Origin: Magnetococcales bacterium
GTDB taxonomy: Bacteria > Pseudomonadota > Magnetococcia > Magnetococcales > UBA8363
DNA length: 62,404 nt
Direction of reading: 5' to 3'
NCBI GenBank assembly: GCA_015228815.1
Contig: JADGCV010000017.1
Location: 1 to 62,404, forward strand
Numbering within the stretch: the stretch's first letter is position 1; each line of letters begins with the position of its first letter. The position numbers and the translations under genes are program-made. This document shows, in pieces, positions 1 to 58,010 of this stretch. The notes under the pieces were generated by a model. The model saw nothing but the letters and a program-made list of their open reading frames with translations, was not told the DNA's origin and did no database searches.

Positions 1-145
1 CAAGGCGCGCGCCTGCGCGAATTTCCGCAAAAACTGCGGAAATTCGCTTCGGGTGAAAGGGCGCGTGGAAAAACAAAATCAAAATCAAAAACAAAGTCAA
101 AACCCTGGGGGCAATCCCCCAGACCCCTTTTTTCTTTCAATAATT
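1..145. repeat. Solo arm of hairpin-bearing MITE, doubles as terminator
   Basis: This stretch matches the right arm of the complete 453-bp element at 43,544-43,996. It has a perfect 13-bp-stem hairpin (17-47, loop AAAAC), the motif TTCGGGTGAAA, a purine-rich spacer with repeated CAAA, a second hairpin (105-122, CTGGGGG/CCCCCAG) and a T run at 128-133. The outer GTAA terminus is missing, so this is a truncated copy. The second hairpin plus T run looks like an intrinsic terminator for plus-strand transcription. The stop codon of the dehydrogenase gene lies at the element's end. Confidence 0.7.
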
Positions 146-27904: not shown

Positions 27905-28122
27905 GCGCCATCGATCCCGAGAGAATCCTGGAAGAACTGATGCGCCTGCGCGAGGAGGCCGCGACCGCGGGTCAGTTCACCGCGGCGGTCCGGGCGACTG
28001 AACTCATCGGCAAACATTTATCGATGTTCGTCGATCGCGTGGAACACAAAGGCGAGATTGATTTTGCCACCCGTCTGATGTCGGCACGCCGGAGGAATCA
28101 TGAAACATCTGGAGACACCTGA
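27901..28122 (+). CDS. Small terminase subunit candidate
   Basis: 73 residues, all helical: LEELMRLREEAATAGQFTAAVRATELIGKHLSMFVDRVEHKGEIDFATRLMSARRR. The size and the place immediately before the large terminase (22-nt overlap) fit a TerS, which recognises phage DNA for packaging. The sequence matches the central oligomerisation part of P22-like TerS proteins; a longer N-terminal DNA-binding domain is absent. Confidence 0.55.
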   Translation: MSAIDPERILEELMRLREEAATAGQFTAAVRATELIGKHLSMFVDRVEHKGEIDFATRLMSARRRNHETSGDT

Positions 28123-29551: not shown

Positions 29552-29614
29552 TCATCCGACGCTAAAGAACGGAATCGCCCCAATGGTGCCCCCTTTTCCT
29601 TGGAGAAACGAACG

Positions 29615-29857
29615 ATGAATGGCAACGCCACGAAAAGCGATTGGGAAACGATGGTTGACCTTGCCCGTGAAAAGGACATCCAGCCCGCCACCGCCTATGA
29701 ATTTTCCAATGGACGCCGTTTCAGTCATCCCCAAAGGCCGTCCCCCCAGCCACCCCCCATGATGGCGGCAGGCGCGGCCCTTCGGCGGCTCGTCGATGCG
29801 CTGCACTGCATGTCCCACGACAAGGAGAACGGCCATGATCAAACCGGAAACCCCTGA
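29615..29857 (+). CDS. Hypothetical phage protein
   Basis: 80 residues from ATG 29615. Helical N-terminus, Pro-rich middle and a short His-containing end. It overlaps the next gene by 23 nt. Probable operon member; no family recognised. Confidence 0.45.
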   Translation: MNGNATKSDWETMVDLAREKDIQPATAYEFSNGRRFSHPQRPSPQPPPMMAAGAALRRLVDALHCMSHDKENGHDQTGNP

Positions 29858-30155
29858 ACAACGATTCGCGGCCCAGATCGGCGAAACCCTGTGGAACGCC
29901 TATCCCGGCTATCGCTGGGCCGTCGCCATCACCGGAGGACTGGCACGCATCCGCAATCTTGATCTTTCAGGACGATGGGGATTCGACATTCCCCTGTCGG
30001 CACTCGACCCGGATCCCCTTTTCAAACAGGTCGTCCACGCCGGCGGCGAAATCCTGGAACGCTACCGGCTGGCCCGGGGAAGGGCCGATGGGGATCGCCT
30101 CGACGAACTGCCCCGTTTCATCACCGGAGAAGCCATGGGAGATGTACACGCATGA
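29835..30155 (+). CDS. Hypothetical phage protein
   Basis: 106 residues from ATG 29835, with AAGGAG upstream inside the previous gene. Its stop overlaps the portal gene start (ATGA). The fold seems mixed alpha/beta, with a conserved-looking GYRWAVAIT and RWGFDIPLSAL. The place between terminase and portal suggests a small structural or packaging factor. Confidence 0.5.
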   Translation: MIKPETPEQRFAAQIGETLWNAYPGYRWAVAITGGLARIRNLDLSGRWGFDIPLSALDPDPLFKQVVHAGGEILERYRLARGRADGDRLDELPRFITGEAMGDVHA

Positions 30156-32206
30156 ACGAAACCCCAACCCGCCCGCAAAACCAGGACCCCTGGGAAACGG
30201 AACCATCGATGGATTCTCCGGACCACGAAACGATCGACGACGCCACCTGGCGCAAACTTTCCCAGGAAGCCTACGAAGAAAGCCGGGAATGGATGGAACG
30301 CAATCTGCGCCGGCAATGGCGACGCAACCTGGCCAATTTTCGTTCGCACCATCCCGAAGGATCGAAATATCATTCGGAAATGTACAAAAGGCGCTCGACC
30401 CTGTTTCGCCCCAAGACGCGCAACGCCATCCGCCGCAACGAGGCCCACGCCGCCGCCGCCTTTTTCCAGAACGCCGAACTGGTCAATCTGGAACCGCGCG
30501 ACGATTCCGACCCGCGACAACTGGCGAGCGCCGAAGTATTCAAGGAAATTCTCCAGCATCGTCTGGAAAAGGATATTCCCTGGTTTCAGACGGTCATCGG
30601 CGCCTTTCAGGATGCCATGGTCCATGGAATCTGCGTTTCCAAGCAGACCTGGGACTATGTCGAAGAACTCCGCGAGGTCGAAAAGGTCCTCACCGATCCG
30701 ATGACCGGACTGGCGATTCACACGCCCCAGGGTGCGCCGATGACCGAACGCTACCTGGAACGGGTCCCGATCGTTGACCGTCCGCGAATCGAACTGCTGG
30801 AACCGGAAAACATCCGCCTCGATCCGGCATCGGACTGGCGCGATCCCATCCATTCCTCGCCGTTCGTCATCCACATCATCCCCATGCGCATCGACGACAT
30901 CAAGAAACGAATGGGTACACAGTGGCGGTCACTCGACGAAAAAGAACTGCTGGCAGCCGTGGCGGAAACGGAATCCTTCAACGACAGCATCCAACAGCAA
31001 CGCCAGGAACGGGTCGCCACAAAACAACGGTCCGGCGCCGATGGGTTTGCCATCGTCAACGTTCATGAAAATTTTATCCGTCACGCCGACCACGATTGGG
31101 TCTTTTTCACGCTCGGCGCCAAGACCCTCCTGAGCGATCCGGTCCCCGTGACCGAGGTCTATCCCCATGGCCGCCCGTTCGTGATGGGTACCTGCATCAT
31201 CGAGGCCCATCGTCCCTACCCCTCGGGATTGGTGGAACTGGCCCAGGACATCCAATCGGCGATCAACGAGGTGCAGAATCAAAGATTCGACAATGTGCAA
31301 CTGGTTCTGAACAAACGCTACTTCGCCCGGCGCGGCAGCGGCGTCGATCTGAAAAGCCTGACCCGCAACATTCCCGGATCGGTCACGATGATGACCAACC
31401 CCGAATCGGATGTCGTCGTCCATCACACCCCCGACATCACCGCCAGCGCCTACGAGGAACAACAGTTGCTCAACGCCGACTTTGATTCGGCCATCGGCAC
31501 CTTCGACCAGGGGAGCGTCAACGTCAACCGGCAACTCAACGAAACCGTCGGCGGGATGAACATCCTGTCCGCCGACGCCAACCTGACGACCGAATACCTG
31601 TTGCGGGTATTTGTCGAAACCTGGGCGGAACCGGTGCTGCGACAACTGGTCCAACTGGAACAACGCTTCGAGACCGACACATTCATCCTCGCCATGGCGG
31701 GACGGCGTTCCCCCCTGGTGCAACGTTTTGGCTTCCATCCCATCATCGACCGCCTGCTGGAACAGGAATTGACCGTCCGCATCAACGTCGGCGTCGGCGC
31801 CACCAACGTCCACAACCGTCTGGAACGATTCCTCCTCGGGGCGCGTACCGTCTCCGATCTTCTGGGGATGGCCCCCGATGCCCGACAGTTGATCGCCGAA
31901 GTGTTCGGTCTTCTGGGATACAAGGATGGCATCCGCTTCTATCCCCAACTCAACACCCCCCCCTCCGAACCCCTGCCCGATCCCCTGGTGGAGGTGGAAC
32001 AGGACAAGGTCAACGTCCAACGGGAAGCCCTCCATCTGCAACGCCAGATCGAAGCGGCCCGACTGCAAACCCGACGCGAGGAAAAAATGCGCACCGACGC
32101 CCTGAAGAAAACAGAACTGGCCACCAAAGCCCACCTCGAACGCCTGCGCATCCAGGCCGCCCTCGCCACGGGAACGACCCAGGGGTTGCGTCGAAACCTG
32201 GGATGA
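30152..32206 (+). CDS. Phage portal protein (podoviral type)
   Basis: 684 residues. Long portal typical of P22/N4-like podoviruses, forming the dodecameric DNA gate in the capsid vertex. Visible family features: helix-rich N-terminus (about 25-130), the central region with DRPRIELLEPENIRLDP, the block QSAINEVQNQRFDNVQL, and the long C-terminal helix (about 600-680) with charged heptads. ATG 30152 overlaps the previous stop. Confidence 0.88.
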   Translation: MNETPTRPQNQDPWETEPSMDSPDHETIDDATWRKLSQEAYEESREWMERNLRRQWRRNLANFRSHHPEGSKYHSEMYKRRSTLFRPKTRNAIRRNEAHAAAAFFQNAELVNLEPRDDSDPRQLASAEVFKEILQHRLEKDIPWFQTVIGAFQDAMVHGICVSKQTWDYVEELREVEKVLTDPMTGLAIHTPQGAPMTERYLERVPIVDRPRIELLEPENIRLDPASDWRDPIHSSPFVIHIIPMRIDDIKKRMGTQWRSLDEKELLAAVAETESFNDSIQQQRQERVATKQRSGADGFAIVNVHENFIRHADHDWVFFTLGAKTLLSDPVPVTEVYPHGRPFVMGTCIIEAHRPYPSGLVELAQDIQSAINEVQNQRFDNVQLVLNKRYFARRGSGVDLKSLTRNIPGSVTMMTNPESDVVVHHTPDITASAYEEQQLLNADFDSAIGTFDQGSVNVNRQLNETVGGMNILSADANLTTEYLLRVFVETWAEPVLRQLVQLEQRFETDTFILAMAGRRSPLVQRFGFHPIIDRLLEQELTVRINVGVGATNVHNRLERFLLGARTVSDLLGMAPDARQLIAEVFGLLGYKDGIRFYPQLNTPPSEPLPDPLVEVEQDKVNVQREALHLQRQIEAARLQTRREEKMRTDALKKTELATKAHLERLRIQAALATGTTQGLRRNLG

Positions 32207-32281
32207 TCGAAAGTCATGGTCTATAATGGTTCGGAAAATCGAAAGACATGTCGCAAAATAAATTTCCAATTCAGGAAAATC

Positions 32282-32310
32282 TTGACAATTTCGACTCCGT
32301 AATGTACAGG
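32282..32310 (+). promoter_or_regulatory. Possible promoter of module A
   Basis: TTGACA at 32,282-32,287 and TACAGG 17 nt later, in a locally AT-rich gap after the portal gene. The -35 is perfect, the -10 is weak, so only a suggestion. The next genes form an isolated unit that ends in its own terminator. Confidence 0.35.
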
Positions 32311-32360
32311 TGAAGGGTTCATCGGGTCAGAAGGATCCCCCTCACTCAGGAGATTGTGGC

Positions 32361-32600
32361 GTGTTCATGCGTCGGTTGCGTGCAGTGTTGTCTTTGATCA
32401 AGGATTCCTTTGATGTCCGCCAATTAAAATCCCGCCCCCGTATCGATCCCTTGAAACAAGCGCAGGAAATGGAACGCCGTCTGGTAGCGACCCTGTCTCG
32501 GGGCAACCTGAGCCTTCAATTTGGTCGCTATACGACAGCCAAGGATATTGAGGACCTCAGGAAATCGTTGCGGGATCATCAGTTTTCCCTTCGCGGATGA
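32361..32600 (+). CDS. Module A small protein (partner of tail-anchored protein)
   Basis: About 79 residues from GTG 32361 (AGGAG 8 nt upstream); ATG 32367 is an alternative. Basic N-terminal half; C-terminal motif NLSLQFGRYTTAKDIEDLRKSL. A similar motif closes the small protein of module B at 48,785 (QSRGYVQSGKEISAEEMDRRTM). The last codons overlap the ATG of the larger partner (ATGA), so translation should be coupled. It is not a structural gene in the podoviral order and is likely a moron. Confidence 0.6.
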   Translation: MFMRRLRAVLSLIKDSFDVRQLKSRPRIDPLKQAQEMERRLVATLSRGNLSLQFGRYTTAKDIEDLRKSLRDHQFSLRG

Positions 32601-33220
32601 TTGACCAGACCATGGACGAAGGACGAAATCCGGAAGACCTGCTGAACACCATTTCGGAACTGTTTCGTAACGCGGAAATAGAAATCAAGTTGGCCGAACA
32701 AATGAGCGGGAATATCATCATTCCCGCCATCAACGAACTCCGGTATGCCGGCAATCATCTTCTCAAAGGGCTTCTGGCATCCTCGCCCAAGGAACAGCGC
32801 GAACAGTATTTCCGTGCCCTACGTCACTGTCAACGGGCCCATTATGATGCCGTTGAAGCGGTACTGCTTTATCTTCTGGACAAATTCAGAACGTTTCAGA
32901 ATGACTACGAAGAAGTGTCCATCCCCGCGGTCTGGCCAGACTACGCCAAGCATCTGTCACGTTTCCATGAGGCGCACAGCCTGCTCAAGTCCGTCGTCAA
33001 AAACCCGGAAGATATTGATGACCTGAAGGACAATCGCGAGAAACTCCTGGGTCCCACCAAGGAAGCTTGCAACAAACTGGCCCCTATCGTCGCATTATCG
33101 GACAGTGTCCGTATCGAATTGAACAAACAGATCGACACCAAACGGACTTCCGATTTGTATGCACGGTGGACAATTGCACTCGCCTTGATTTCCATTCTTG
33201 TGACGTTACTCGCACGGTAG
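32597..33220 (+). CDS. Module A helical protein with C-terminal membrane anchor
   Basis: 207 residues, mostly alpha-helical, with one hydrophobic segment at the extreme C-terminus (about 188-206, WTIALALISILVTLLA), so a tail-anchored inner-membrane protein with a cytoplasmic body. The block INELRYAGNHLLKG...ALRHCQRAHYDAVEAVLL aligns with ANEMFSCLHHIARG...AYESHIKRATLDSYKIAI of the module B protein. Function unknown; superinfection exclusion or abortive infection is a reasonable guess from setting and topology. Confidence 0.6.
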   Translation: MIDQTMDEGRNPEDLLNTISELFRNAEIEIKLAEQMSGNIIIPAINELRYAGNHLLKGLLASSPKEQREQYFRALRHCQRAHYDAVEAVLLYLLDKFRTFQNDYEEVSIPAVWPDYAKHLSRFHEAHSLLKSVVKNPEDIDDLKDNREKLLGPTKEACNKLAPIVALSDSVRIELNKQIDTKRTSDLYARWTIALALISILVTLLAR

Positions 33221-33273
33221 CGACGCACAGTTTCTTCGTAAGCAAATCAATCAATTTTAGTCAGCATTCTCGA

Positions 33274-33306
33274 CAGCCGGACGCAACCCATGCGCCCGGC
33301 TGTTTT
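33274..33306 (+). terminator. Intrinsic terminator closing module A
   Basis: CAGCCGG-a-CGCA / TGCG-c-CCGGCTG stem with one mismatch, a 5-nt loop, and TTTT (33,303-33,306) followed by CGTTTT. It ends the module before the next structural gene. Confidence 0.7.
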
Positions 33307-33335
33307 CGTTTTCACTTCCAACATTCGGAAAAAAC

Positions 33336-33701
33336 ATGGCGCGAAAAACAGAAAAAACGATTGCGAACGAATGGGTTGCCAATGCCAGAGCGGGACGGCT
33401 GATGGATGCGCTGGTCCAGGAGGACAGCCGGCGCATCTGGCTGGCGGAGGTCGATCTTGGATTGCAATGCCAGAAATTTTTCACATCCGATGTTGGCCGT
33501 TATCTCCTGGGTCGGGCCGCCCAGGAAATTCAGGAGGCGCGAGATCTTCTGGAACAGGTCCATCATGAAGAGACCGGCAGTGTCCGGCAATTGCAAAACC
33601 GCATCTGGCGCGCCCGATCCTTCATCACCTGGATCGATGAAGCGATCCGGGATGGCGAAGAGGCGGAAATCAACCTGAACGGATTGACACTGGAGGAGTG
33701 A
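33336..33701 (+). CDS. Hypothetical phage protein
   Basis: 121 residues, helical and acidic, likely soluble. The start MARKTEKTIANEWVANARAG is basic; the centre (about 35-100) looks like a coiled coil. It lies 5 nt before the scaffold-like gene, so it belongs to the late operon. No family recognised. Confidence 0.5.
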   Translation: MARKTEKTIANEWVANARAGRLMDALVQEDSRRIWLAEVDLGLQCQKFFTSDVGRYLLGRAAQEIQEARDLLEQVHHEETGSVRQLQNRIWRARSFITWIDEAIRDGEEAEINLNGLTLEE

Positions 33702-33705
33702 CCCC

Positions 33706-34740
33706 ATGAGCGACACATCAGCCATCCCCCTGGACGCTGAAACGGAACCGGAACGCCCTGAAACCCCGCCCTGGGATACGGAAACCCCGTCCCCAGCCGC
33801 CCCCCATCCCCCCGAAGAGACGCCACCGGTCGATGAACGTCTGGAAGCCCTGAACCGGATCGCCCGACGCAATCATGAACGGAACGAAACGCCGGCAAGA
33901 CCGGAGCCAACCTTCCCGGAAGCCGCTGCCGCCGACCGATCCGATGAAAGCGACAAGGAAACCCCGTCGCAAAACGGATCCATGCCCCCCGGAACCAGGG
34001 ATGGGCATGCGGAAACAATGCCGGTCCGATCCGACGAACGGGTGCCGGTCACCATCGATGGCAAAACCGAACTGCTGCCGCTCGACACGGTGGTCCGCGG
34101 CTATCAGATCGAGGCCGCCGCACGCAAGCGACTTGGAGCGGCGGCCTCGATCTTCAAACGGCTCAAACAGAGGGAATCATCCCTGGTCCCATCGGGACAT
34201 CCTTCACTGGCCGTCGCACCGACCCCACCCCCATCCCAGGGACGGGAGTCGGCCACGGAAACCACGTCGATCCAGGAGATGGAAGAATACCTCCAGCAGA
34301 GCGAACCGGAACAGCCGCGGCCAGCCATTGCCCCGGTCGATCCGGAGCAACTGGCGGAATATGTCTTTCTGCGGCAGGAGGTTCGGAGTGAAAAGCAACG
34401 TCTCATCGACGCGCAGCCGCACATTGCCCGCGATGCCCGATTGTCGGGCATGCATGCGAACATCGTCATGGAGACGATGGAGGCCCAACCCGGCCTGCCG
34501 ACGCGGGATTATTTTGATCACGCCACCGAGGCCATCAACCAATGGTTGCTCCAGTTGACCACGGCCAGGCTTAGCCGGACCAGCGATACCGGACAGCGGC
34601 TCATGGACAAGCGTGAGGCAACGAACAAACAGGCACCCATGGGAATTCACCGCAAGGTTTCCTCGGGAACCGATGCCCCGGCGCCGCCGACCTATGCCGA
34701 CAAGATCCGGCAGATGAAACAGGCGCGGGGCCTGACATGA
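33706..34740 (+). CDS. Scaffold-like phage protein
   Basis: 344 residues. The N-terminal 110 residues are low complexity, rich in Pro, Glu, Thr and Asp; the middle has a short conserved block VPVTIDGKTELLPLDTVVRGYQIEAAARKRLGAAASIFKRLKQ; a charged helical C-terminus follows. Position directly before the capsid gene and this composition fit a head scaffolding protein. Confidence 0.6.
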   Translation: MSDTSAIPLDAETEPERPETPPWDTETPSPAAPHPPEETPPVDERLEALNRIARRNHERNETPARPEPTFPEAAAADRSDESDKETPSQNGSMPPGTRDGHAETMPVRSDERVPVTIDGKTELLPLDTVVRGYQIEAAARKRLGAAASIFKRLKQRESSLVPSGHPSLAVAPTPPPSQGRESATETTSIQEMEEYLQQSEPEQPRPAIAPVDPEQLAEYVFLRQEVRSEKQRLIDAQPHIARDARLSGMHANIVMETMEAQPGLPTRDYFDHATEAINQWLLQLTTARLSRTSDTGQRLMDKREATNKQAPMGIHRKVSSGTDAPAPPTYADKIRQMKQARGLT

Positions 34741-34756
34741 ATGGAGGATCAAACAC

Positions 34757-35707
34757 ATGGCTGGACAAGTATGGAGCGTATCCGCCGACGGCGGATACAT
34801 GTATGCCGACAACCTGTCGGAAAAATTGCGCTTTGCCGTGCAACCGCTCTCCAAGTTTCGCCAGTTCTGCGACATCAAGGAGGCCTTTGGCAAGAATCGC
34901 GGCGACACCTTCCACTGGAACGTCTATGGCGACGTGGCGGCCCAGGGGGGAACGCTGGTCGAGACCAGCACCATGCCGGAAACCAAGTTTTCCATCTCCC
35001 AGGGGACCCTCACCGTCCAGGAATATGGCAACAGCGTCCCCTTCACCGAGAAACTCGACAATCTTTCGGAACATCCGGTGACCGAGGTCATCCACCAGGT
35101 GCTCAAGCATGATGCCAACCGTACCCTCGACGCCGCCGCTCATGCCCAGTTCGCCATCACCCCGCTGCGCCTGACCTCAGGGACCTCCACATCGACCGTC
35201 ACCCTGACCACCAACGGCACCGCCACGGAGACCAACAATGTCGCCTTTGGCAAGGGCCATGTGCAGGCGATCGTCGATCTGATGAAGGAGCGTTCGATTC
35301 CCGCCTATGACAACGGCGATTATTACGCCCTGGGACGGCCCGCGACCTTTCGTCAACTGAAGAAGGATCTGGAATCCCTGCATCAATACATCGAATCGGG
35401 GTTCAAGATGATCATGAACGGTGAAATCGGTCGCTACGAAGGGGTCCGTTTCATCGAACAGAACGGTATCGCCAAGGGGACCGGGACCACGGCGGGGAGC
35501 GCCTGGTCCAACGGCAACGATGCCGTTTATTTTCTCGGTCGGGATACCGTTGCCGAGGCGGTCGGCGTTCCCGAGGAGATTCGCGGCAAGATTCCGGGTG
35601 ATTTTGGTCGCGACCGGGGCATTGCCTGGTACTACCTGGGCGGCTTTGGCATTTGCCATTCCCAGGCGGCCCAGGCCCGCATCCTGATGTGGGATTCGGC
35701 GGCTTGA
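34757..35707 (+). CDS. N4-gp56-family major capsid protein
   Basis: 316 residues in the HK97-like fold family called N4-gp56. Diagnostic parts include the N-terminal VQPLSKFRQFCDIKEAFGKNRGDTFHWNVYGD, TLTVQEYGNSVPFTEKLDNLSEHPVTEVIHQVL, IPAYDNGDYYALG, IMNGEIGRYEGVRFIEQNG and the C-terminal GRDRGIAWYYLGGFGI. Follows a 16-nt gap after the scaffold gene. Confidence 0.9.
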   Translation: MAGQVWSVSADGGYMYADNLSEKLRFAVQPLSKFRQFCDIKEAFGKNRGDTFHWNVYGDVAAQGGTLVETSTMPETKFSISQGTLTVQEYGNSVPFTEKLDNLSEHPVTEVIHQVLKHDANRTLDAAAHAQFAITPLRLTSGTSTSTVTLTTNGTATETNNVAFGKGHVQAIVDLMKERSIPAYDNGDYYALGRPATFRQLKKDLESLHQYIESGFKMIMNGEIGRYEGVRFIEQNGIAKGTGTTAGSAWSNGNDAVYFLGRDTVAEAVGVPEEIRGKIPGDFGRDRGIAWYYLGGFGICHSQAAQARILMWDSAA

Positions 35708-36699: not shown

Positions 36700-37025
36700 T
36701 GCTCCTCGACCGGTCCCGCCCCTATGGCGAAGTATGGGGGGCCCCCGGAATTGCCTTCGTTCAGGGAAAATGGGTGTTCAATCATCGTGGACAGGCCATT
36801 GCCGCCCCTGCCGGACCGATCTGGCAAAGAATTCTCCATGATCCCGACCTGGCCCGTCATGAACTGACCGCCAACGCCGCCGCCAACACCGTGCGCGCAC
36901 TGTCGCGTCTTTCCTGGTCCGAGCTGCGACGCATCGCCCGCGACGAATACACGCTGCATCCCGGACGATCGGGAAAGGAAGAATTGATCCAAAGAATCCA
37001 TCGCCGCATCATGGAGCAGTCATGA
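36699..37025 (+). CDS. Phage protein with Rho/SAP-like C-terminal domain
   Basis: 108 residues from ATG 36699. The C-terminal part (SWSELRRIARDEYTLHPGRSGKEELIQRIHRR) resembles the Rho N-terminal/SAP helix-extension-helix fold that binds nucleic acid. It overlaps the next gene by 4 nt. Its role in the head operon is not known. Confidence 0.5.
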   Translation: MLLDRSRPYGEVWGAPGIAFVQGKWVFNHRGQAIAAPAGPIWQRILHDPDLARHELTANAAANTVRALSRLSWSELRRIARDEYTLHPGRSGKEELIQRIHRRIMEQS

Positions 37026-38623
37026 CCTGGAATCCCCTGACCCCCTCGATCAGTGAAACCGCCAAGATCCGTTACTTTGTCGTCCCTTTCACCCGCGGGA
37101 TCGGAGCGGACCTGGGATGCGGTCCGGAACGGATCTGGCCCAAAGCCCTGGGAATCGATCGGACGCTTTCCCCCCATGGCGCGGCATTGGCCCGAGACAT
37201 CGCCAACCTTGCCTTTTTTGCCGATGACAGCCTCGACTACATCTATTCATCGCATGCCCTGGAGGATTTTCCCGCCTCGCGCACCGAGGCCATCCTTGCC
37301 GAATGGTGGCGGGTGATCAAACCTGGGGGCCATCTGGTGTTGTACCTGCCCCACGAGGACCATTATCCCCGCGTCGGACAACCAGGTTGCAACCCGGCCC
37401 ATCGGCGCAACTTCAATGAACAGGATACCCTGAACCTGATGCGCCGCCTGACCTCGGAGGGTGGATCCGGGGCCGTGGTAGCGCTTAACGAAGTTCGTAG
37501 CGCCGGTAACGAATATTCTTTTCTTCAGGTCTTTCGGAAAACACGACACCCAGGCTGGGCCGCCGCCCCTTCACTTTCAGGGAAGAAACGGGCCCTGGTG
37601 ATCCGTTACGGCGGCTATGGCGATATTCTGCAGGCCTCGTCGGTATTTCCGGGACTCAAGAACCAGGGATACGAGGTTTGGGTCAATACCACCGGTCGGG
37701 GGCGGGACATCCTGGCACACGATCCCCACATCGACGGCTGGTGGTTGCAGGATCCCGAGCAGGTGCCAAACGCCTGCCTGGGAGATTATTGGCGCGCCCT
37801 GGAACAACGCTTCGACCGGGTGATCAACCTGTCCGAATCGGTCGAAGGGACCTTGCTGACCTTGCCCCACCGCGTCAACGACCGGTGGCCCGACCGGGCG
37901 CGTCATCTGTTTTTCAACCACAATCAAATGACCGTGATCCATGCCATCGCCGGCGTACCACCGGGATCCAATCTTCGTTTTCACCCCTCGGACAAGGAAC
38001 GGCGGCAGGCGCAACGGATGCGCCGGGGACTGGGTCGGGGTCCGGTCATTCTCTGGGTTCTGGCCGGATCGTCGCTCCACAAGGCGTGGCCATTTGTCGA
38101 TCATGTCCTGGCGGCGCTGCTTCTCGAAAAGCCCACCCTCCATTTCATACTGGTGGGCGATGAGTTTTGCCGTGTCCTGGAGGAAGGATGGCGCAACGAA
38201 CGCCGCGTCCATCGTCGCAGCGGTCGCTGGGACATACGGAAAACCTTGAGCTTTGCCCAATGCGCGGATGTGGTGGTCGGTCCCGAGACGGGGGTGATGA
38301 ATGCCCTGGGGCTGGAGGAGGTTGGCAAGGTATTGTTTTTGTCCCACTCTTCGGTCGAAAACATCTCCAGCCACTGGCAGCGGACCGTCAACCTGAAACC
38401 CCCGGCGGAGGTGACCTGCCATCCCTGTCACCGGCTGCACTATGACTGGGAGCGTTGCCACCGCGACCCGGAAACCGGCGCCGCATGGTGCTCCGCGGCG
38501 ATCCGTCCCGACCGGGTCACGGCGGCGATCCTTTTTCTTCTGGGAGAACTTCATGAACAGAAACGAGGCCATCGAACTGATTCGACTCCGAACCGGACTG
38601 GATCATGTGCCGGGCTGGGATGA
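37022..38623 (+). CDS. Fused SAM methyltransferase and GT9-like glycosyltransferase
   Basis: 533 residues. Domain 1 (about 1-175) is a class I SAM-dependent methyltransferase (LGCGPERIW, SSHALEDFPA, WRVIKPGGHLVLYLPHEDHY). Domain 2 (about 190-510) resembles GT9/heptosyltransferases (LVIRYGGYGDILQASSVFPGL, LAGSSLHKAWPF, VVGPETGVMNALGLE) with a Cys-containing end. It could modify sugars of LPS or a virion glycan. It overlaps the adaptor gene by 71 nt. Similar fusions occur in some podoviral late operons; the substrate is unknown. Confidence 0.75.
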   Translation: MTWNPLTPSISETAKIRYFVVPFTRGIGADLGCGPERIWPKALGIDRTLSPHGAALARDIANLAFFADDSLDYIYSSHALEDFPASRTEAILAEWWRVIKPGGHLVLYLPHEDHYPRVGQPGCNPAHRRNFNEQDTLNLMRRLTSEGGSGAVVALNEVRSAGNEYSFLQVFRKTRHPGWAAAPSLSGKKRALVIRYGGYGDILQASSVFPGLKNQGYEVWVNTTGRGRDILAHDPHIDGWWLQDPEQVPNACLGDYWRALEQRFDRVINLSESVEGTLLTLPHRVNDRWPDRARHLFFNHNQMTVIHAIAGVPPGSNLRFHPSDKERRQAQRMRRGLGRGPVILWVLAGSSLHKAWPFVDHVLAALLLEKPTLHFILVGDEFCRVLEEGWRNERRVHRRSGRWDIRKTLSFAQCADVVVGPETGVMNALGLEEVGKVLFLSHSSVENISSHWQRTVNLKPPAEVTCHPCHRLHYDWERCHRDPETGAAWCSAAIRPDRVTAAILFLLGELHEQKRGHRTDSTPNRTGSCAGLG

Positions 38624-39173
38624 ACGGATCCGAATGGAACTGGAAATGGCGCAGACCTCCCTGGAGTGGAACGCGGTATTGCCCTGGTTTCTCCTTGCCA
38701 TCGATGATTCCCTGAGTGTTTTGGCGGAAGCCGCGACCCTGGCGCTGCCGGCGGGATTTCTCCGTCTTGGCAACCAGGGGGGGCTGTTCCGTTACGACAG
38801 CACCCGTGCCAATCCCTGGATCGGCTTGCAGCGCGACACCTACGAAAACCTCAATGCCCAAACCATGGACCGAGGAACGGTAACCCACTTTGCCCTTCTC
38901 GGGGCGACCATTCATTTGTTTCCCGTTCCCGACACCGCCACCAGTTTTCGTTTGATTCATTTCAAGTCGGGAGGATCCCTGGCGACCAACACCACGACCA
39001 ACCCCTGGCTGGTCCACGCCCCGGAAGTATTGATCCACGAAGCCGCGGCCCGCGTCGATCCCAACCGCGCCGGATTGTGGCTGGAACTGGCGGAAAAGGA
39101 AAAAGCCCGCATCGGCATGCACGACGATCAACGCCACTTCGATGGCATGAACGTCCGCATCGTTGCCGAATGA
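38553..39173 (+). CDS. Head-to-tail adaptor-like protein, copy 1
   Basis: 206 residues. The start MNRNEAIELIRLRTGLDHVPGWDERIRMELEMAQTSLEWN resembles phage adaptor/connector proteins with helix-rich cores. The start ATG lies inside the preceding gene. A longer homologue is at 44,104. The end HFDGMNVRIVAE is repeated with changes at the C-terminus of the SGNH protein, within a ~180-bp direct repeat. Confidence 0.65.
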   Translation: MNRNEAIELIRLRTGLDHVPGWDERIRMELEMAQTSLEWNAVLPWFLLAIDDSLSVLAEAATLALPAGFLRLGNQGGLFRYDSTRANPWIGLQRDTYENLNAQTMDRGTVTHFALLGATIHLFPVPDTATSFRLIHFKSGGSLATNTTTNPWLVHAPEVLIHEAAARVDPNRAGLWLELAEKEKARIGMHDDQRHFDGMNVRIVAE

Positions 39174-39296
39174 CCATCCCGGCAAACGCCCAGGCCAGGA
39201 AGATCCTTCCGTCTCCCTGGTCTGGTGCGTTCACCGCCTCATGATTCGAACTTCCTGGCAGGGTTCTTGTCATTTTTGTTAGAATCAGGAGGAAAT
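39115..39296 (+). repeat. Direct repeat R1 (adaptor 3' end plus promoter-like tail)
   Basis: Paired with 40,461-40,631. Contains the last ~19 codons and stop of the adaptor, then the conserved string GAACTTCCTGGCAGGGTTCT, an extended -10 TGTTAGAAT (39,277-39,285) and AGGAGG. The pair flanks the SGNH gene. The string is strongly conserved, the coding part diverged. Confidence 0.75.
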
Positions 39297-39334
39297 TTCT
39301 TCAATTAATCATCATTTTAATTTTGGACATCATA

Positions 39335-40519
39335 ATGTCAACACGGAATACAATTAATCGCAATAGAATTTATTGGATAATCACTTTCTTCTTGTCCTTG
39401 TTTCTTTTCCTCTTCGTCGCCGAGGTGATGATACGTTTTGCCGCGCCACAAAATCGTTCTGGTACATGGCTGGAACGCAACGAAAATGGATTGATGTTAA
39501 ATCGGGCTTTCCATAATGCCCAACATCAGTTTGGCGACCGAACAGTCATCTACCATACCGGCCCCTTCGGCCTGAGAAGCAAGACGTTAGCACACAGTAA
39601 CCGAAAAATCCTGGTGATTGGCGATTCATTTACCTTTGGCTGGCTACTCAATGAAGAAGATACCTATGTTCAGCATCTCCAAAATCGAGCAGATACTGAA
39701 TATGGTCGGGGAGTCGTTCAATTCTTGAACGGCGGCGTGGGTGGGTCGGGAACAGATTCACATCTTGGTTTTGTTGAGACGTTCGGAGATATGATCAACC
39801 CTGATGCACTCATCGTCTACTTGAATGTTGATGATATAGGCCGCAGTTTTCGCAACAGGATGTATTTTCTTGCCGATACAGATGGGTTTGAACTGGTTCG
39901 ATCAACCGTTGAAATATCATATTATGAGAAAATTAAGTCTATATTAAACAAAAGCACTGTTTATAGTGATGTACTACAATGGATATTGGAAAGGTCGCAT
40001 GCTTTACAGTTCGTTCGCAATTTCCTTGTAACGTTCAATCAGAATGTCGCAGATCGAAAATCGGAAAGAATGGTTATTGGTGGTGCAGTCAACCGAATGG
40101 CCAATGTGACCCCCGCCGATGCAGTCCGCTTGGGACAGGCTTTGTTTATACGCCTGAAAAAATGGACCGATCAACGAAAGATTCCTCTGCTTGTATTAAC
40201 CACCGGTTTTTTTAATCCAGAGGAGAGGATTGATGATCCTACTTATCATTTCTCTAATCAGTGCCATGACTTTTTCAAGTTATCAGGAATCGCTTATGGT
40301 GATCTGTATCCACTCGTTTTGGGAGCGGACGGCAAAGACGGCGTAATACTGAAAAAGCGAATGGAACATTTGATCATTCCGAATGAAACCCATCCCAACG
40401 AGAAAGGGGCGGCCACGGTTGCACTTGCCAGTTGGCCGTATGTCAAAGACCTGCTCCTCAGCATGCGCAACGACCAACACCAATTCAATGGCAAGAACGT
40501 CCGCACCGTTGCCGAATGA
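39335..40519 (+). CDS. Membrane-anchored SGNH/GDSL-type hydrolase
   Basis: 394 residues: one N-terminal membrane helix (about 13-34), then a long SGNH-hydrolase fold with GDSF (Ser block I), GGVGGSGTD (block III-like) and ETHPNEKG near the end holding the catalytic Asp/His analogue. Probably acts on the cell surface, for example removing or adding acyl groups on a glycan. The gene is more AT-rich than the structural genes. Its C-terminus (QFNGKNVRTVAE) copies the adaptor protein, so the reading frame runs into the duplicated repeat. Likely acquired cargo. Confidence 0.7.
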   Translation: MSTRNTINRNRIYWIITFFLSLFLFLFVAEVMIRFAAPQNRSGTWLERNENGLMLNRAFHNAQHQFGDRTVIYHTGPFGLRSKTLAHSNRKILVIGDSFTFGWLLNEEDTYVQHLQNRADTEYGRGVVQFLNGGVGGSGTDSHLGFVETFGDMINPDALIVYLNVDDIGRSFRNRMYFLADTDGFELVRSTVEISYYEKIKSILNKSTVYSDVLQWILERSHALQFVRNFLVTFNQNVADRKSERMVIGGAVNRMANVTPADAVRLGQALFIRLKKWTDQRKIPLLVLTTGFFNPEERIDDPTYHFSNQCHDFFKLSGIAYGDLYPLVLGADGKDGVILKKRMEHLIIPNETHPNEKGAATVALASWPYVKDLLLSMRNDQHQFNGKNVRTVAE

Positions 40520-40631
40520 CCGTCCCAAGTCAAAAGGGTCCTTCCCGCACTCCGGTCTGGTGCGTTTGTTTCCTCATGATTCGAACTTCCTGGCAGGGTT
40601 CTTGTCAAATTTGCTAGAATCAGGAGGAAAT
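40461..40631 (+). repeat. Direct repeat R2
   Basis: Second copy of the repeat at 39,115-39,296. It covers the last codons and stop of the SGNH gene, the conserved string, extended -10 TGCTAGAAT (40,612-40,620) and AGGAGG directly followed by AAATG. It lies 51 nt before the RloA-like gene and probably supplies its promoter. Confidence 0.75.
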
Positions 40632-40681
40632 GACTCCAAATCATCCATTTTGTGACCGGCGATCCACACCAAGGAATCCCA

Positions 40682-42016
40682 ATGCTCCTGCGCTTTTCAG
40701 TCACAAACCTGTTCTGCTTCGCCGACGAGGCGGAGTTGAACCTGGTGGCGACCAAGGATAAAAATCATCCCGAACATCTGTGCCCCGCCGACAAATTCAA
40801 CGCCTTGCGGATTGCGGCGTTGTATGGCGCCAATGCCCACGGCAAATCACGGCTTGTCCAGGCGATGCAATGCGCCAAGACCATCATCACCAAGGGAACC
40901 ACCGAACCTGGTCAGGCCATCCCCGTGACTCCCTTTCGCCTGGATGTTGACCTGCGACAAAAACCAACCCGGTTCGAATTTGTTTTTTCAACAAAAGAAA
41001 CCATATATACCTACGGTTTCCAATGCGACGAAAAACAAATCTTTGAAGAATGGCTTTTTTCAAAACCCGCGAACCGACACGAAGTCAAATTGTTCGAACG
41101 CCGGGTCGATGGACAGGGGAATAGCGAATTCAACATTGGCAGGACCTTGCAACGCGGTAATACAAAGGGTCGGAGTTTCCTTAAATTTCTGACCCAGAGC
41201 GTCCGGGGAAACCAGTTGTTCCTCACAAGGGCAATCAACGATAATCTGGATTATCTATCCCCGGTCCATGACTGGTTCAATCATTCATTGAATATTTGGG
41301 AGGCTGGTGCGCCCATTCTTCCGGTCGCACTTCTTGCGTTGGAAAATGAACGCTTTCGAAATTTTGTCGGCGAGTCGATGAAGTCTTTCGATACGGGCAT
41401 CAATGGTATTCATACGGAAGAAAGATCTGGAAAGCCATCACAAAAATTAGATTTTCTTCTACACACTTTCGAGTTCGGGAAAGATGTTGATCAGGAAGAA
41501 ATAATACTCGAAGACAGTTCCGATCATGGGGGCTTGCTGCATTATTTTTCGAAGGACAAAATTCGATCGATAAGAATGCAAACACTCCATGAGGTCCCTG
41601 GTGACGATCCCGTGTTTTTTAAATTGAGTGATGAATCTGCCGGAACACGCCGTCTGATTCAATTGCTTCCCCTGCTGTTTGCAGAAGAAGCGATGGAAAA
41701 CGTTTATGTCATCGACGAGTTGGACCGCACCCTCCACCCCAGCCTTTCCCGTGCATTCATTGAGCATTTTCTCAAGATCATCGGATGCGACAGGAATCAG
41801 CTAATCTTCACCACGCATGAAAGCAATCTTCTTGATCTTGACTTATTGCGCCGCGATGAGATATGGTTTGTCGAGAAAGATGCCAAGGGAAGATCACAAC
41901 TCTATCCCTTGACCAGTTTTAAAGCCCGACCGGACATCAATATTGCCCGGGGTTACCTCCAGGGTCGGTTTGGCGCCATCCCTTTCATCGGTGACCCTTC
42001 CGCCCTGGGTTGGTAG
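40682..42016 (+). CDS. RloA/AbiLi-like AAA ATPase
   Basis: 444 residues. AAA_15/21-type ABC ATPase related to OLD-family proteins. Walker A GANAHGKS (about 49-56), Walker B VYVIDELD (about 341), and the H-loop TTHESN at about 380. Directly followed by an RloB-like gene, the partner seen in RloAB and AbiL defence pairs. ATP-dependent sensor of phage infection is the inferred role. It has AT-richer codon use than the phage structural genes. Confidence 0.85.
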   Translation: MLLRFSVTNLFCFADEAELNLVATKDKNHPEHLCPADKFNALRIAALYGANAHGKSRLVQAMQCAKTIITKGTTEPGQAIPVTPFRLDVDLRQKPTRFEFVFSTKETIYTYGFQCDEKQIFEEWLFSKPANRHEVKLFERRVDGQGNSEFNIGRTLQRGNTKGRSFLKFLTQSVRGNQLFLTRAINDNLDYLSPVHDWFNHSLNIWEAGAPILPVALLALENERFRNFVGESMKSFDTGINGIHTEERSGKPSQKLDFLLHTFEFGKDVDQEEIILEDSSDHGGLLHYFSKDKIRSIRMQTLHEVPGDDPVFFKLSDESAGTRRLIQLLPLLFAEEAMENVYVIDELDRTLHPSLSRAFIEHFLKIIGCDRNQLIFTTHESNLLDLDLLRRDEIWFVEKDAKGRSQLYPLTSFKARPDINIARGYLQGRFGAIPFIGDPSALGW

Positions 42017-42038
42017 ACACACAAGGGATCGCTTTTTT

Positions 42039-42689
42039 GTGCCCAAATCACTGACATCAAGAAAAAGATTAAAGGGTCGGACCGGGTCGAGCACACGGGA
42101 TTCACGACTCTTTGTCATTGCAACGGAAGGAAGTGAAACGGAACCATTGTATTTTAATTGTTTCAAGGAAAAATTTACAAATGGAAACAGAAAAATAAAG
42201 ATTGCCATTCTTGGAGCCGGTGGCAAGCAGAGGTCTTCACCAAAACAGATACTTGGAAGAATCGATACCTACATCCAGAAGAACGACATAAAGAAAGATG
42301 ATGAATTCTGGCTGGTACTGGATGCCGAGAGCAGAGGCGGAAACGATCTGGACAGTATTGCCACGGAAGCGAAGAGGAAAAAATATCGTCTTGCCATAAG
42401 CAATCCCAGTTTCGAGATCTGGCTGTTATGCCATCGTCAACGCCCACCCGGAGGACCGGTCGAACAACGCCATCTCGAAGACTCGTTGAGCAAAGCCCTT
42501 GGAAAATCCTATGAAAAGGGAAAAATAACGTGCGACGATTACATGAACGCAGTTGATAAGGCCATCGCCATAGCCAAAAAATCAGATCTTTGCCCCGACG
42601 CTGCCTGGCCCAAATCCACGGGCACCCATGTTTATCGAGTCATCGAGTCCATCAAGGCCTTCATCAACGCAACCACCGCATCCATCTGA
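42039..42689 (+). CDS. RloB/AbiLii-like TOPRIM-type protein
   Basis: 216 residues from GTG 42039 (AAGGGA upstream). The RloB signature is clear: VIATEGSETEPLYF at the N-terminus, KDDEFWLVLDAE, and ISNPSFEIWLL; these acidic residues make a TOPRIM-like metal site. Predicted effector nuclease of the RloAB/AbiL pair, starting 22 nt after the ATPase stop. DefenseFinder's AbiL model uses the same two domains. Confidence 0.85.
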   Translation: MPKSLTSRKRLKGRTGSSTRDSRLFVIATEGSETEPLYFNCFKEKFTNGNRKIKIAILGAGGKQRSSPKQILGRIDTYIQKNDIKKDDEFWLVLDAESRGGNDLDSIATEAKRKKYRLAISNPSFEIWLLCHRQRPPGGPVEQRHLEDSLSKALGKSYEKGKITCDDYMNAVDKAIAIAKKSDLCPDAAWPKSTGTHVYRVIESIKAFINATTASI

Positions 42690-42808
42690 TCGGACCGCCT
42701 GATTAACTCCATGCGCACGAGGTACCAGATTTATTATTTCTGGAAAAGGAACCATGCAATTATCATTATCAATCGTCAATCAACCTATTGCCTATTTGGT
42801 GCTCAAGC

Positions 42809-43324
42809 ATGAACGGAAGACCAGAAATACCAACTGAAATAAAACGTAAAGTTCTTGTCGAAGCTGGGCATCGGTGCGCAATTCCGACTTGTCGGCATAT
42901 CGATGTAGATGTTCACCATATCGTGCCTTGGGAAAAATGCCAGAAGCATGAATATGAGAATCTGATTGCCCTCTGCCCAAATTGCCACCGTCGAGTACAT
43001 AAGAATGAGATTGACAGAAAATCATTGGCCATTTACAAAAATAATCTCAGGAAAGCGCACGATAAATACTCGCAATTCGAAATTGACTTTCTTTACGAGA
43101 CGTACTTAATCAGAGACAATAAAAACACTGGCATACAGTTTCCACCATACTTAATTTTACTGATTAAAAGGCTTCTTGAATCTGGTTTTCTGTCAAGGAC
43201 TGTGACTCAAGGTGGTGTTTACCTGATGGAAATGAAGTCAAGCCCAGACATATACAGAATCACCAACATAGGAATAGACTTCATAGAATCATTTTCTAAA
43301 GACAATGAAAAAAATTTACCTTGA
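42809..43324 (+). CDS. HNH endonuclease
   Basis: 171 residues. An HNH nuclease fold (about 15-75) with zinc-binding Cys pairs (CAIPTCR and CPNCHRR) and catalytic DVHHIVPW / NLIALCPNCHRRVH. The C-terminal half (about 85-165) is helical with an unknown, possibly winged-helix, domain. It is AT-rich and sits right after RloB. It may be a third defence component or a stand-alone mobile nuclease. Confidence 0.8.
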   Translation: MNGRPEIPTEIKRKVLVEAGHRCAIPTCRHIDVDVHHIVPWEKCQKHEYENLIALCPNCHRRVHKNEIDRKSLAIYKNNLRKAHDKYSQFEIDFLYETYLIRDNKNTGIQFPPYLILLIKRLLESGFLSRTVTQGGVYLMEMKSSPDIYRITNIGIDFIESFSKDNEKNLP

Positions 43325-43543: not shown

Positions 43544-43996
43544 GTAACTATTCAGACCCCTCCCCGTATTAAAATTATTGAAAGAAAAAAGGGGTCTGGG
43601 AGATTTCCCCCAGGGTTTTGACTTTTCTTTTTGTTTTGACTTTGTTTTCACGCGCCATTTCACCCGAAGCGAATTTCCGCGTTTTTTGCGGAAATTCGCG
43701 CAAGACGCGCCCCCTTGCTCAAGTCTTTTCGCGGTTTTTGCGAAAAGACCAGGACACATTGCAAGTTTTCAGGCCTTTCAACACGCAAGGGGTTTGTCTT
43801 CCTTCGCAAAAACCGCGAAGAAGGGCAGGCCAAAGGGCGCGTCTATGCAAGATTCCCGCAAAAACCACGCGGGAATCTTGCTTCGGGTGAAATGGCGCGT
43901 GGAAAAACAAAGTCAAAAACAAAACCCTGGGGGCAATCCCCCAGACCCCTTTTTTCTTTCAATAATTTTAATACGGGAAGGGGTCTGAACGATTAC
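43544..43996. mobile_element. 453-bp MITE with 8-bp target duplication and covarying hairpins
   Basis: Terminal inverted repeat GTAACTATTCAGACCCC (left) / GTAATCGTTCAGACCCC (right, complement). Flanked by ACGCCTGG at 43,536-43,543 and 43,997-44,004, a perfect 8-bp duplication. The GTAA ends and 8-bp duplication fit IS66-type transposition. Arms of about 140 nt pair with each other. They carry four hairpins (43,669-43,699; 43,723-43,749; ~43,802-43,820; 43,847-43,881) whose stems differ but keep paired, with A5/T5-type loops. No coding sequence. Confidence 0.85.
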
Positions 43997-44103: not shown

Positions 44104-45132
44104 ATGACCGTCGGACTGACGAAAGGGAATGCCATTTCCCTGATTGGATCACGTTTTGGCAATCGCAGCGACCTTGACACCATCATCGAGGATGAACTCA
44201 ACCTGTCCCAGACCCAGGCGTTGGAAGGGGGAGATTTTCTTCCATGGTTTTTGATCCGCGAGGTCAAGACGACCGTTCGCGCCGGAACGACCCGGGTTTC
44301 CATGGATGCCCTGGGGGCGAGCGAACTGACCACCAATGGTTCCTTCTCCAGCGATACCGGCTGGACCAAAGGAACCGGTTGGACCATCTCGGGAGGCAAG
44401 GCCACCTCCGATGGTTCCCAATCAACCACTTCCGATCTGGAACAGGATATTTCGGTCACGCAGAACAGTTATTACACCCTGCGCTTCACCCTGTCGGCAA
44501 TGACGGCGGGAACCCTTACCCCAAAAATCGCCGCCACCTCCGGAACCACTCGCTCCGGCAATGGTCATTATGAAGAAAGAATCATGGCCGGGGCGGGAAC
44601 CACCCCGCGGCTCGAATTCTCCGCCGATGCCGATTTTATCGGATCCATCGACAATGTGTCGGTCTGGGGAGAGGGAGACGCCAAACTGTTGCGGGTCTAT
44701 GAACACGGCGGCATCTACTGGGGCGCTTCCGGCAGTACCGCGCCAACCGCCGAACTCCTGCGCGGCACCTACAAATACCTGTGGAGCAAACTCAATACCG
44801 AAAGCGCCGGAACGCCAACCCACTACGCCATCCGCGGACGCGATCTGATCCTCTATCCCGTGCCATCCGCCGATTTTGAATTGTTCAGCGTCGGCTACCA
44901 TCGCGAAGCCCCCTTCTCGACCCTGGCCACCGGAAACTCCAACGCCTGGCTCCGCCATGCCGCCGACTGGTTCATCGCCGAGGCCTCCTTTCGCGTCGCC
45001 TATCATCTCAAGGACAACGAAAGTCTGCAAAAATTTCAACAGGAAGCCGCCCTCGCCAAGGCCCGGGTGATGCTCGCCCATCGCGCCAACGCTCATCCCA
45101 CCGAAATGAGCAACACCGGAGGTGCCGCCTGA
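44104..45132 (+). CDS. Head-to-tail adaptor-like protein, copy 2, with inserted beta domain
   Basis: 342 residues. The N- and C-terminal parts (about 1-75 and 200-340) resemble the adaptor at 38,553, including the IPAY-like layout. Residues about 77-197 hold an inserted jelly-roll-like domain: TTNGSFSSDTGWTKGTGW..., LTLSAMTAGTLTPKIAATSGT, ADADFIGSIDNVSVW. The same domain occurs in the tail protein at 47,172. The insertion suggests a surface-exposed carbohydrate-binding ornament. GGAG precedes ATG 44104. Confidence 0.65.
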   Translation: MTVGLTKGNAISLIGSRFGNRSDLDTIIEDELNLSQTQALEGGDFLPWFLIREVKTTVRAGTTRVSMDALGASELTTNGSFSSDTGWTKGTGWTISGGKATSDGSQSTTSDLEQDISVTQNSYYTLRFTLSAMTAGTLTPKIAATSGTTRSGNGHYEERIMAGAGTTPRLEFSADADFIGSIDNVSVWGEGDAKLLRVYEHGGIYWGASGSTAPTAELLRGTYKYLWSKLNTESAGTPTHYAIRGRDLILYPVPSADFELFSVGYHREAPFSTLATGNSNAWLRHAADWFIAEASFRVAYHLKDNESLQKFQQEAALAKARVMLAHRANAHPTEMSNTGGAA

Positions 45133-46052
45133 TGTGGTGCCGTTACGTCTACAAAGCCGCCGCCACCAAAGCCAATATTCTTTCCGACGTGGTCAAACTG
45201 CTGACTGGCGAAACCTCGCTTGCCAACCTGTCGAGCGATTGCGATACCGCCGCCTCGCAACTGGTGACGACCGTCGCCGCCGGCTGGAGCCTTCACGACA
45301 ACGCCGCCGGCACCAATGCCAAATGCCTCAAGGCCCCCTTCGCCGACGATGCCGCCACCTGCAAATACCTGGTGCTCGATACCAATACCACCGGATACAT
45401 CTTTGGCAAGGTTTACGAAACCTGGAATGCCACTGCCCATACCGGCACCAATCTGGCCTACTATTCCGACAACACCACCTACTGCCAGAGGATCAGCACA
45501 TCGAGCGCCAAGATCTACCTGTCATCGTCGGCACGGCATGCCCTCCTGTTTTCCAACATGGCCGGAACCCTCGGCAGTTCGACCGGTAACTCTCCCAGCG
45601 GTCTTCTCGAACGCAGCCGAACCATGGCCTGGGATACCGTCGCGGCAGGATATCCCCCCTGTTCATTCGTCAACTTCAGTCTTGCCAACGGCTCCGGCGA
45701 TCTCTATCCGCCGCGGATCAAACGCCGTTCCACCACCGACGGCACCGGGGCTTCGGCCATCTCGACCCTGGCCAGCACCTGTGTCAGTTATGTCGGCGCG
45801 TTCAGCGAAACAGGACTTATCACCGATGGCCAGGGGGGTGAATACATTCCACTCCTGCCGTTGATCATGACCCGGTGGAACCGGGGAACCACCGCGTTTC
45901 CCGGCATTTTCGGCAATTTTTCCGCGCTCTGCGACGTATGGATGATCCCGACCGGGGTGTTCGCCGTATTCGACGAATTCCTCGCCGGCGGCAACACCTA
46001 CATCGCTTTGAGCAACAGCATCGGGGTCAAATATTGTACAAGGAAAGCCTGA
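45132..46052 (+). CDS. Tail-associated protein, paralogue 1
   Basis: 306 residues; starts in the stop of the previous gene (ATG overlapping TGA). Glycine, serine and threonine rich, mostly beta. The N-terminal block YVYKAAATKANILSDVVKLLTGETSLANLSSDCD aligns with the next gene, so the two are a tandem duplication. Cys residues are frequent. Role in the tail is inferred. Confidence 0.5.
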   Translation: MWCRYVYKAAATKANILSDVVKLLTGETSLANLSSDCDTAASQLVTTVAAGWSLHDNAAGTNAKCLKAPFADDAATCKYLVLDTNTTGYIFGKVYETWNATAHTGTNLAYYSDNTTYCQRISTSSAKIYLSSSARHALLFSNMAGTLGSSTGNSPSGLLERSRTMAWDTVAAGYPPCSFVNFSLANGSGDLYPPRIKRRSTTDGTGASAISTLASTCVSYVGAFSETGLITDGQGGEYIPLLPLIMTRWNRGTTAFPGIFGNFSALCDVWMIPTGVFAVFDEFLAGGNTYIALSNSIGVKYCTRKA

Positions 46053-47002
46053 TGTACTGTAAATATGCCTACAATCCCGGAGCCACCTACGCCAATTTTG
46101 TCGCCGACATGGTCAAGCTCCTGACCGGCGAGGCAAATCTTGCCAACCTGTCATCCCAATGCAATGTCGCCCGATCGGAACTCGTCACCACCATCCCCGC
46201 CGGATGGAGCGTTCACGATGCCCAGCCGGGCGGCGACTATCAGGTGCTGAAAGCCCCCTGGGCCGACAACGCCGGAACCAAATATGCCAAAGTCGGCTCC
46301 CTCCTCGATTCGGGCGCATCGATCAACATTTGCCACGGATACGAAACCTGGGATGCATCAACCCATGCGGGAACCGGACTGGCCTATCTCTCCGGCACAG
46401 GCATCTACGCCCAACGATTCGACCCCAACGGCAGCGGCATTCTATACCTTTTCGCCAGCGCCCGCTTCATGATGATGTTGGGGATCACCGCCTCGGGTCT
46501 GGTCGGCGGCAGCACCTTTTCGGGTCCGTCGGGTCTGTTCGAACATACCCGCGCCATGCCCTGGTGCAGCGCCGCCAACGCCGTCGGTCCCTGGGGCTGG
46601 ACCAATCTGGCCTGGTATGGCAGCTACGATACCGGCTTCAGCCCCATCCGATGCAAACGCCGCTCCACGGGACTCCTGGAAACCGGTTGCGCCCTCGCCC
46701 TTGGCGTTCCCGGTGGTCACGGCATCGCCGATTCCCTCAATACCGGCACCTGTGAACACTCCCTCGTCGATTCGGCCACCATGGCGGTGGTGATGTACCC
46801 CTTGATCCTGACCGGCATCGAATGGGATCAAGCCTCCAATGGCGGCGTTTCCGGTTACCACGGCAACCTGTCCAGCGTCTGCGATGTCTGGGGGGTGCAA
46901 TCGGGAAGCCTGTGCCTGGGAGATACCCTGACCTGGAACGGACGTACCTACATGGCCCTGTTGAATGCCTCCAGCGTCAACATTCTTGCCCGAAAGGAAT
47001 AA
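46052..47002 (+). CDS. Tail-associated protein, paralogue 2
   Basis: 316 residues, about a third identical in the N-terminal part to the previous protein (YAYNPGATYANFVADMVKLLTGEANLANLSSQC) and in the CRRSTG segment. Its ATG overlaps the previous TGA. The two may form different layers of the tail hub or appendages. No known family recognised. Confidence 0.5.
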   Translation: MYCKYAYNPGATYANFVADMVKLLTGEANLANLSSQCNVARSELVTTIPAGWSVHDAQPGGDYQVLKAPWADNAGTKYAKVGSLLDSGASINICHGYETWDASTHAGTGLAYLSGTGIYAQRFDPNGSGILYLFASARFMMMLGITASGLVGGSTFSGPSGLFEHTRAMPWCSAANAVGPWGWTNLAWYGSYDTGFSPIRCKRRSTGLLETGCALALGVPGGHGIADSLNTGTCEHSLVDSATMAVVMYPLILTGIEWDQASNGGVSGYHGNLSSVCDVWGVQSGSLCLGDTLTWNGRTYMALLNASSVNILARKE

Positions 47003-57880: not shown

Positions 57881-58010
57881 ATCCTGCTCCTTGATGTTGG
57901 AAATCTTGGATCAGGATCGCAGATAGAAAAAACGATGGGAACCCTGGGGTTCGTTCGGCGCTTACGATAGAAAAAACGATGGGAACCCTGGGGTTCGTTC
58001 GGCGCTTACG

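Follow-up and report, generated by a model that had tools for sequence, protein, structure and literature searches.

A direct repeat of an adaptor gene end and a promoter-like core at the cargo site of a phage structural cluster in Magnetococcales

Known systems and the cargo site

Some integrative elements insert at the 3′ ends of genes and restore them. The dusA islands are a related case at the 5′ end (PMC4482086). Phages also gain cargo as morons, an example being the ant moron region of the P22-like phages (PMC2629481). According to PMC4503421, promoter early stem loops (PeSLs) mediate shuffling between T4-like phages, and PeSL-like motifs appear in the account of the haloarchaeal virus HGTV-1 in PMC3950731; the primary work on PeSLs is that of Arbiol 2010 and Comeau 2014.

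We analyzed a window of 62,404 nucleotides (the whole of the stretch studied, from contig JADGCV010000017.1), which holds a phage structural cluster encoding the terminase large subunit, the portal, the major head protein, and an SU10-type adaptor (PF24175). Its synteny is kept throughout the genus, where the head protein is 89-97% and the terminase 84-90% identical, and a further six species of this Magnetococcales genus have the same adaptor gene. What lies between adaptor 1 and adaptor-like gene 2 varies by species; in the window this site holds an SGNH gene, rloA-rloB, and an HNH gene. As in phage morons, the cargo occupies one place in a structural operon, would be independently expressed, and differs or is absent between relatives. 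Its base composition is also unlike that of the backbone, as with morons (GC of 44% for SGNH and 47-49% for rloAB, against 58-61% for the phage genes). SGNH lies at a syntenic site, and a search of seven other members of the genus did not find it there. The gap between the two adaptor genes is best explained as a cargo (moron) site, the phage structural cluster around it being shared by the whole genus. The features are as follows.

38553-39173, + strand: adaptor 1 (SU10-type), intact; PF24175, E 1e-9; orthologs in 6 other genus members
39112-39310, + strand: repeat copy 1, with the adaptor 3′ end, stop, hairpin, and promoter-like core
39180-39236, + strand: strong hairpin after the adaptor stop, a possible terminator; −35.1 kcal/mol, z −6.2
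39237-39296, + strand: promoter-like core upstream of SGNH; 57/60 identical to copy 2, 77% to the G004 stretch upstream of rloA
39335-40519, + strand: SGNH/GDSL hydrolase-like cargo gene; PF13472, E 1.8e-7, which falls slightly short of the curated cut-off
40458-40645, + strand: repeat copy 2, with the SGNH-fused adaptor-like tail, decayed hairpin region, and promoter-like core
40572-40631, + strand: promoter-like core upstream of rloA, with the extended −10 TGCTAGAAT
40682-42016, + strand: rloA, AbiLi-type AAA ATPase, cargo; AAA_21, E 2.7e-29; AbiLi, E 8e-84
41998-42689, + strand: rloB, AbiLii-type, cargo, start approximate; RloB PF13707, E 9.7e-31; AbiLii, E 2.6e-19
44104-45132, + strand: adaptor-like gene 2, which bounds the cargo site on the right; phrog_2941; 83-91% amino acid identity in relatives

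The second cargo, an AAA ATPase and an RloB-domain protein in tandem like the known RloAB/AbiL defence pair, is by its domain matches a new member of the AbiL-type pairs with nothing unusual about it. The window holds several other elements. An HNH endonuclease ORF of low GC (42788-43324, 39%) lies at the same cargo site outside the repeat. Between it and adaptor 2 is a large imperfect inverted repeat (43544-43996, 94-nt arms, 86% complementary), parts of which recur at window 38-149; it is possibly a miniature mobile element. After adaptor 2, a 172-nt direct repeat (45127-45298 and 46047-46218, 73% identical) lies at the starts of two successive genes that are probably tandem paralogues, and a perfect 44-nt tandem duplication lies at 57922-58009. 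Upstream of adaptor 1, within the structural cluster, a 533-aa gene with a methyltransferase domain (37022-38623) is kept in all relatives read (65-74%). All 8/8 genus genomes have one terminase gene and no more (window 28100-35707 and relatives, for the terminase/head cluster), and the rest of the order has only four relatives of it, more distant at 43-56%. The terminase/head cluster looks vertically kept, and is perhaps domesticated or gene-transfer-agent-like, or else a very common prophage lineage.

Anatomy of the repeat and the fused SGNH gene

An earlier note on this DNA had described a direct repeat that places the adaptor 3′ end again after the SGNH gene. Performing a whole-genome search with copy 1 as the query, we find that just two places matched, copy 2 at 78% identity with an E value of 1.1e-39, and the repeat is therefore real and far beyond chance. 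It spans about 190 bp (39112-39310 versus 40458-40645) at 77-80% identity; copy 1 proper covers 39112-39296 and copy 2 40458-40631, with weak similarity continuing to 39310 and 40645, respectively. The similarity thus extends far beyond the conserved string TTGNTAGAATCAGGAGGAAAT, which occurs exactly twice in the window versus 0.01 expected by chance. In each copy, the last 19 adaptor codons (in copy 1, those of adaptor 1 itself) and the stop are followed by a hairpin region and then by a promoter-like core. The copies are 1346 nt apart in the coding part and 1335 nt apart in the non-coding part, because 11 nt are missing from copy 2. Identity between the copies is 85% over the 62 nt of the coding part, 35/52 positions (with an 11-nt gap) in the hairpin region, and 57/60 in the core. 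The core holds significantly fewer mismatches than the hairpin region (3/60 versus 17/52, Fisher p 1.4e-4); the core and the coding tail (3/60 versus 9/62) do not differ significantly (p 0.13). No RNA family or tRNA inside the repeat scored above chance. We rejected a multi-copy mobile repeat, as the genome has two copies only, and the repeats of a diversity-generating retroelement, as the differences between copies, on which alone this was judged, also fall at bases other than adenine.

Copy 1 has a strong hairpin, which is present in G004 (−22.7 kcal/mol) and lost in copy 2 (−12.3 kcal/mol, z −0.2); G003 and G006 have different hairpins at the same place. After SGNH there is no strong terminator. 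The core is 77% identical to that of G004 over 53 nt. In it, TGTTAGAAT (copy 1, 39277-39285) and TGCTAGAAT both read as an extended −10 box, and neither has a good −35 ahead of it. A consensus promoter scan, which tests −35/−10 pairs and not extended −10 sites, gave nothing above chance and listed neither core. In a sigma-54 reading of the conserved CTGGC-N7-TTG string, made by eye, the copies in the window do not retain the −12 GC. The proposal that the cargo gets a promoter holds to the extent that a promoter-like core, a putative promoter, precedes both cargo units. The sequence AGGAGG follows the −10 box directly in both copies (39287-39292 and 40622-40627). We do not place it as a ribosome-binding site because it is 42 and 54 nt upstream of the ATGs of SGNH (39335) and rloA (40682); it is likely the predicted place where the transcript would start. 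The overall pattern fits selection that acts on the adaptor end and hairpin of copy 1 and on the promoter of each copy.

The SGNH ORF is the only one between the repeat copies, and its codons from about 40458 on are adaptor-derived. It ends in SMRNDQHQFNGKNVRTVAE where the adaptor ends in GMHDDQRHFDGMNVRIVAE, in the same frame and using the adaptor-like stop, so the observation that its last residues copy the adaptor C-terminus stands. Among 48 genomes of the order, the sole SGNH relative is a chromosomal gene of G011 with 42-45% identity, adjoining an MBOAT acyltransferase gene. An SGNH gene beside MBOAT is the layout typical of polysaccharide O-acetylation. The G011 protein ends in ASWPFVNTILLGHRASTVPK, and the window protein reads ASWPYVKDLLL-SMRNDQHQFNGKNVRTVAE there. 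The G011 relative thus stops before the adaptor-like tail; therefore the last ~19 residues of SGNH are adaptor-derived and the window protein is a fusion. The native last few codons of SGNH were probably lost, as this alignment suggests, and the gene probably comes from host polysaccharide acetylation, a function that its relative's neighbourhood points to. Plasmid and phage records searched with SGNH, phage records searched with the adaptor region, and viral contigs searched with the adaptor, SGNH, and the promoter core gave no relatives.

Relatives and the direction of change

Comparing the same site across the genus, we find empty, single-copy, and other states. G005 and G006 are cargo-free, with 193 nt and 110 nt between the adaptor genes, respectively. 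G004 has adaptor 1, a single hairpin, the promoter, rloA-rloB, and adaptor 2, and SGNH is absent; it is the relative without SGNH and with a single repeat unit that the earlier note had proposed to look for. The repeat in place without cargo was not seen in the relatives. G002 and G003 have other reading frames, after which the stretch or contig ends. In G002, the nearest relative by adaptor, there is no recognisable tail past the adaptor stop, and the ancestral state is therefore taken from G004, a more distant relative.

G004 and G005 are 95% identical on both flanks of the rloAB unit, and G005 retains only the first arm of the G004 hairpin; G005 therefore looks like a deletion. The window's promoter is absent from both empty sites. 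For this reason it is most likely the rloAB cargo's and not the phage backbone's, and the idea of a phage landing pad that comes with a promoter was not borne out. The rloA proteins of G000, G004, and G007 are 52-55% identical, whereas the backbone is 84-97% identical, so the cargo seems to have been exchanged or acquired separately at the site.

G007 carries an Rpn-like gene (minus strand), a caspase-like gene, a second Rpn-like gene (minus strand), and then rloA-rloB, the Rpn-like and caspase-like names coming from sequence reading with no family search. Its rloA-rloB is without the window's promoter and hairpin-promoter cassette. Upstream of its caspase-like gene and its rloAB lies a 63-nt direct repeat (L027, 5525-5587 and 9065-9127, 89% identical), each copy beside a divergent Rpn-like gene and with only two copies in that genome. 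This repeat is unrelated in sequence to that of the window and has no adaptor end; it gives a hint that upstream segments may have been duplicated at the cargo site more than once.

The direction of change can be read in the coding tail, where the copies differ at nine positions. G002 agrees with copy 1 at 9/9, and all six relatives agree with it at 6/9; at 2/9, some other relatives carry the copy 2 base. Eight of the nine differences alter the amino acid. The best reading is that copy 2 is the one that changed at all nine. Thus, from the agreement of the relatives with copy 1, copy 1 is the maintained end of the adaptor and copy 2 is the relaxed copy. Copy 2 is 85% identical to copy 1 and at most 66% identical to any other relative.

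Origin of the duplication

We consider it probable that a promoterless SGNH gene was inserted at offset breakpoints into a G004-like ancestor and that about 190 bp were duplicated in the process. The ancestor would have had the adaptor, hairpin, promoter, and rloAB at the cargo site, as G004 has. SGNH would have been joined in by one illegitimate (non-homologous) recombination at offset points, the left joint just downstream of the promoter and the right one 19 codons short of the adaptor stop, and the stretch between the joints would have been duplicated by the offset joining. Copy 1 would then preserve the adaptor and hairpin and supply SGNH with a promoter, and copy 2 would close the SGNH reading frame and preserve the promoter of rloAB. 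Afterwards, copy 1 would have retained the adaptor end and hairpin, and both copies the promoter, as the remainder of copy 2 drifted. The joining might have come about when a broken phage genome was repaired using a second copy.

The same arrangement would result if two related phages, one with adaptor, repeat, and SGNH and the other with adaptor, repeat, and rloAB, had recombined out of register, the second copy coming from the other phage. The low identity of rloA relative to the backbone, suggestive of separate exchange or acquisition of cargo, agrees with this. However, the arrangement of adaptor, repeat, and SGNH alone was not found in the 48 genomes of the order or in viral contigs, and no other relative comes as near to copy 2 as copy 1 does; we hold this history to be unlikely. 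We are still more doubtful that repeated hairpin-promoter cassettes served as PeSL-like anchors for cargo swapping, with the adaptor end as extra homology carried along. This genome has only two copies, elsewhere in the 48 genomes there is just a weak match (E 0.04), and the rloAB of G007 does without the cassette, against which stand the hairpin-then-promoter order upstream of each cargo unit, the promoter core being the best-kept part of the repeat, and the unrelated G007 repeat before its caspase-like gene and rloAB. It is improbable that the whole adaptor was first duplicated in tandem and most of the second copy then replaced by SGNH: this would give the same intact first adaptor and in-frame fusion, and a second adaptor-like gene does lie downstream, but two events are needed, no relative has adaptor 1 in tandem, and the similarity ends at 40458 with no further adaptor remnant. 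That SGNH is a small integrative cassette whose attachment-site-like repeats restored the 3′ end of the target gene is hardly credible, for although direct repeats flank SGNH and the gene's end is restored, the repeat is long, 20% diverged, and without mobile copies elsewhere; site-specific integration was rejected since the unit lacks a recombinase and the copies are too diverged.

Insertion at offset breakpoints keeps part of the gene-insertion scheme proposed earlier: a single copy without SGNH, cargo-free relatives, and a whole adaptor 1, which confirms that the upstream gene stays intact. The scheme as a general one did not hold up. No relative has a duplicated adaptor end with another cargo, rloAB in G004 and G007 sits at the site without one, and a dedicated insertion system is not supported. 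It is quite unlikely that cargo gains at this site repeatedly duplicate a local promoter-bearing segment in this lineage; if such a repeatable route were true, structural genes would stay whole, every cargo unit would be expressed, and the independent 63-nt repeat of G007 would be a second case.

Compared with the known systems, the window is like PeSLs in the order of its parts, a hairpin region and then a promoter-like core, repeated upstream of cargo genes in a plastic region. The stem-loop with the promoter-like core between genes is present in copy 1 and G004, whereas the copy 2 hairpin is lost. The window differs from the PeSLs of T4-type phages in having two copies only and not many near-identical ones, in its SU10-type adaptor and non-T4 structural genes, and in a repeat that has a decayed hairpin in copy 2 and reaches into upstream coding sequence. 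As with 3′-end integrative elements, the target gene is intact and its end is supplied twice, but a recombinase and a short identical core are absent. What sets the window apart from phage morons is a direct repeat that takes in the upstream structural gene's 3′ end, with the cargo protein fused to that end. Within a phage structural operon, the locus offers an unusually readable single cargo gain: sister species show the empty, single-copy, and duplicated states, each duplicated piece shows what was kept, and the direction of change can be read. In summary, while a new mechanism is not established, this is a variant of known phage cargo gain, a real and well-polarised single event, which suggests that offset joining, by duplicating the stretch it targets, is one of the ways in which a moron can gain a promoter and the structural gene stay unbroken.
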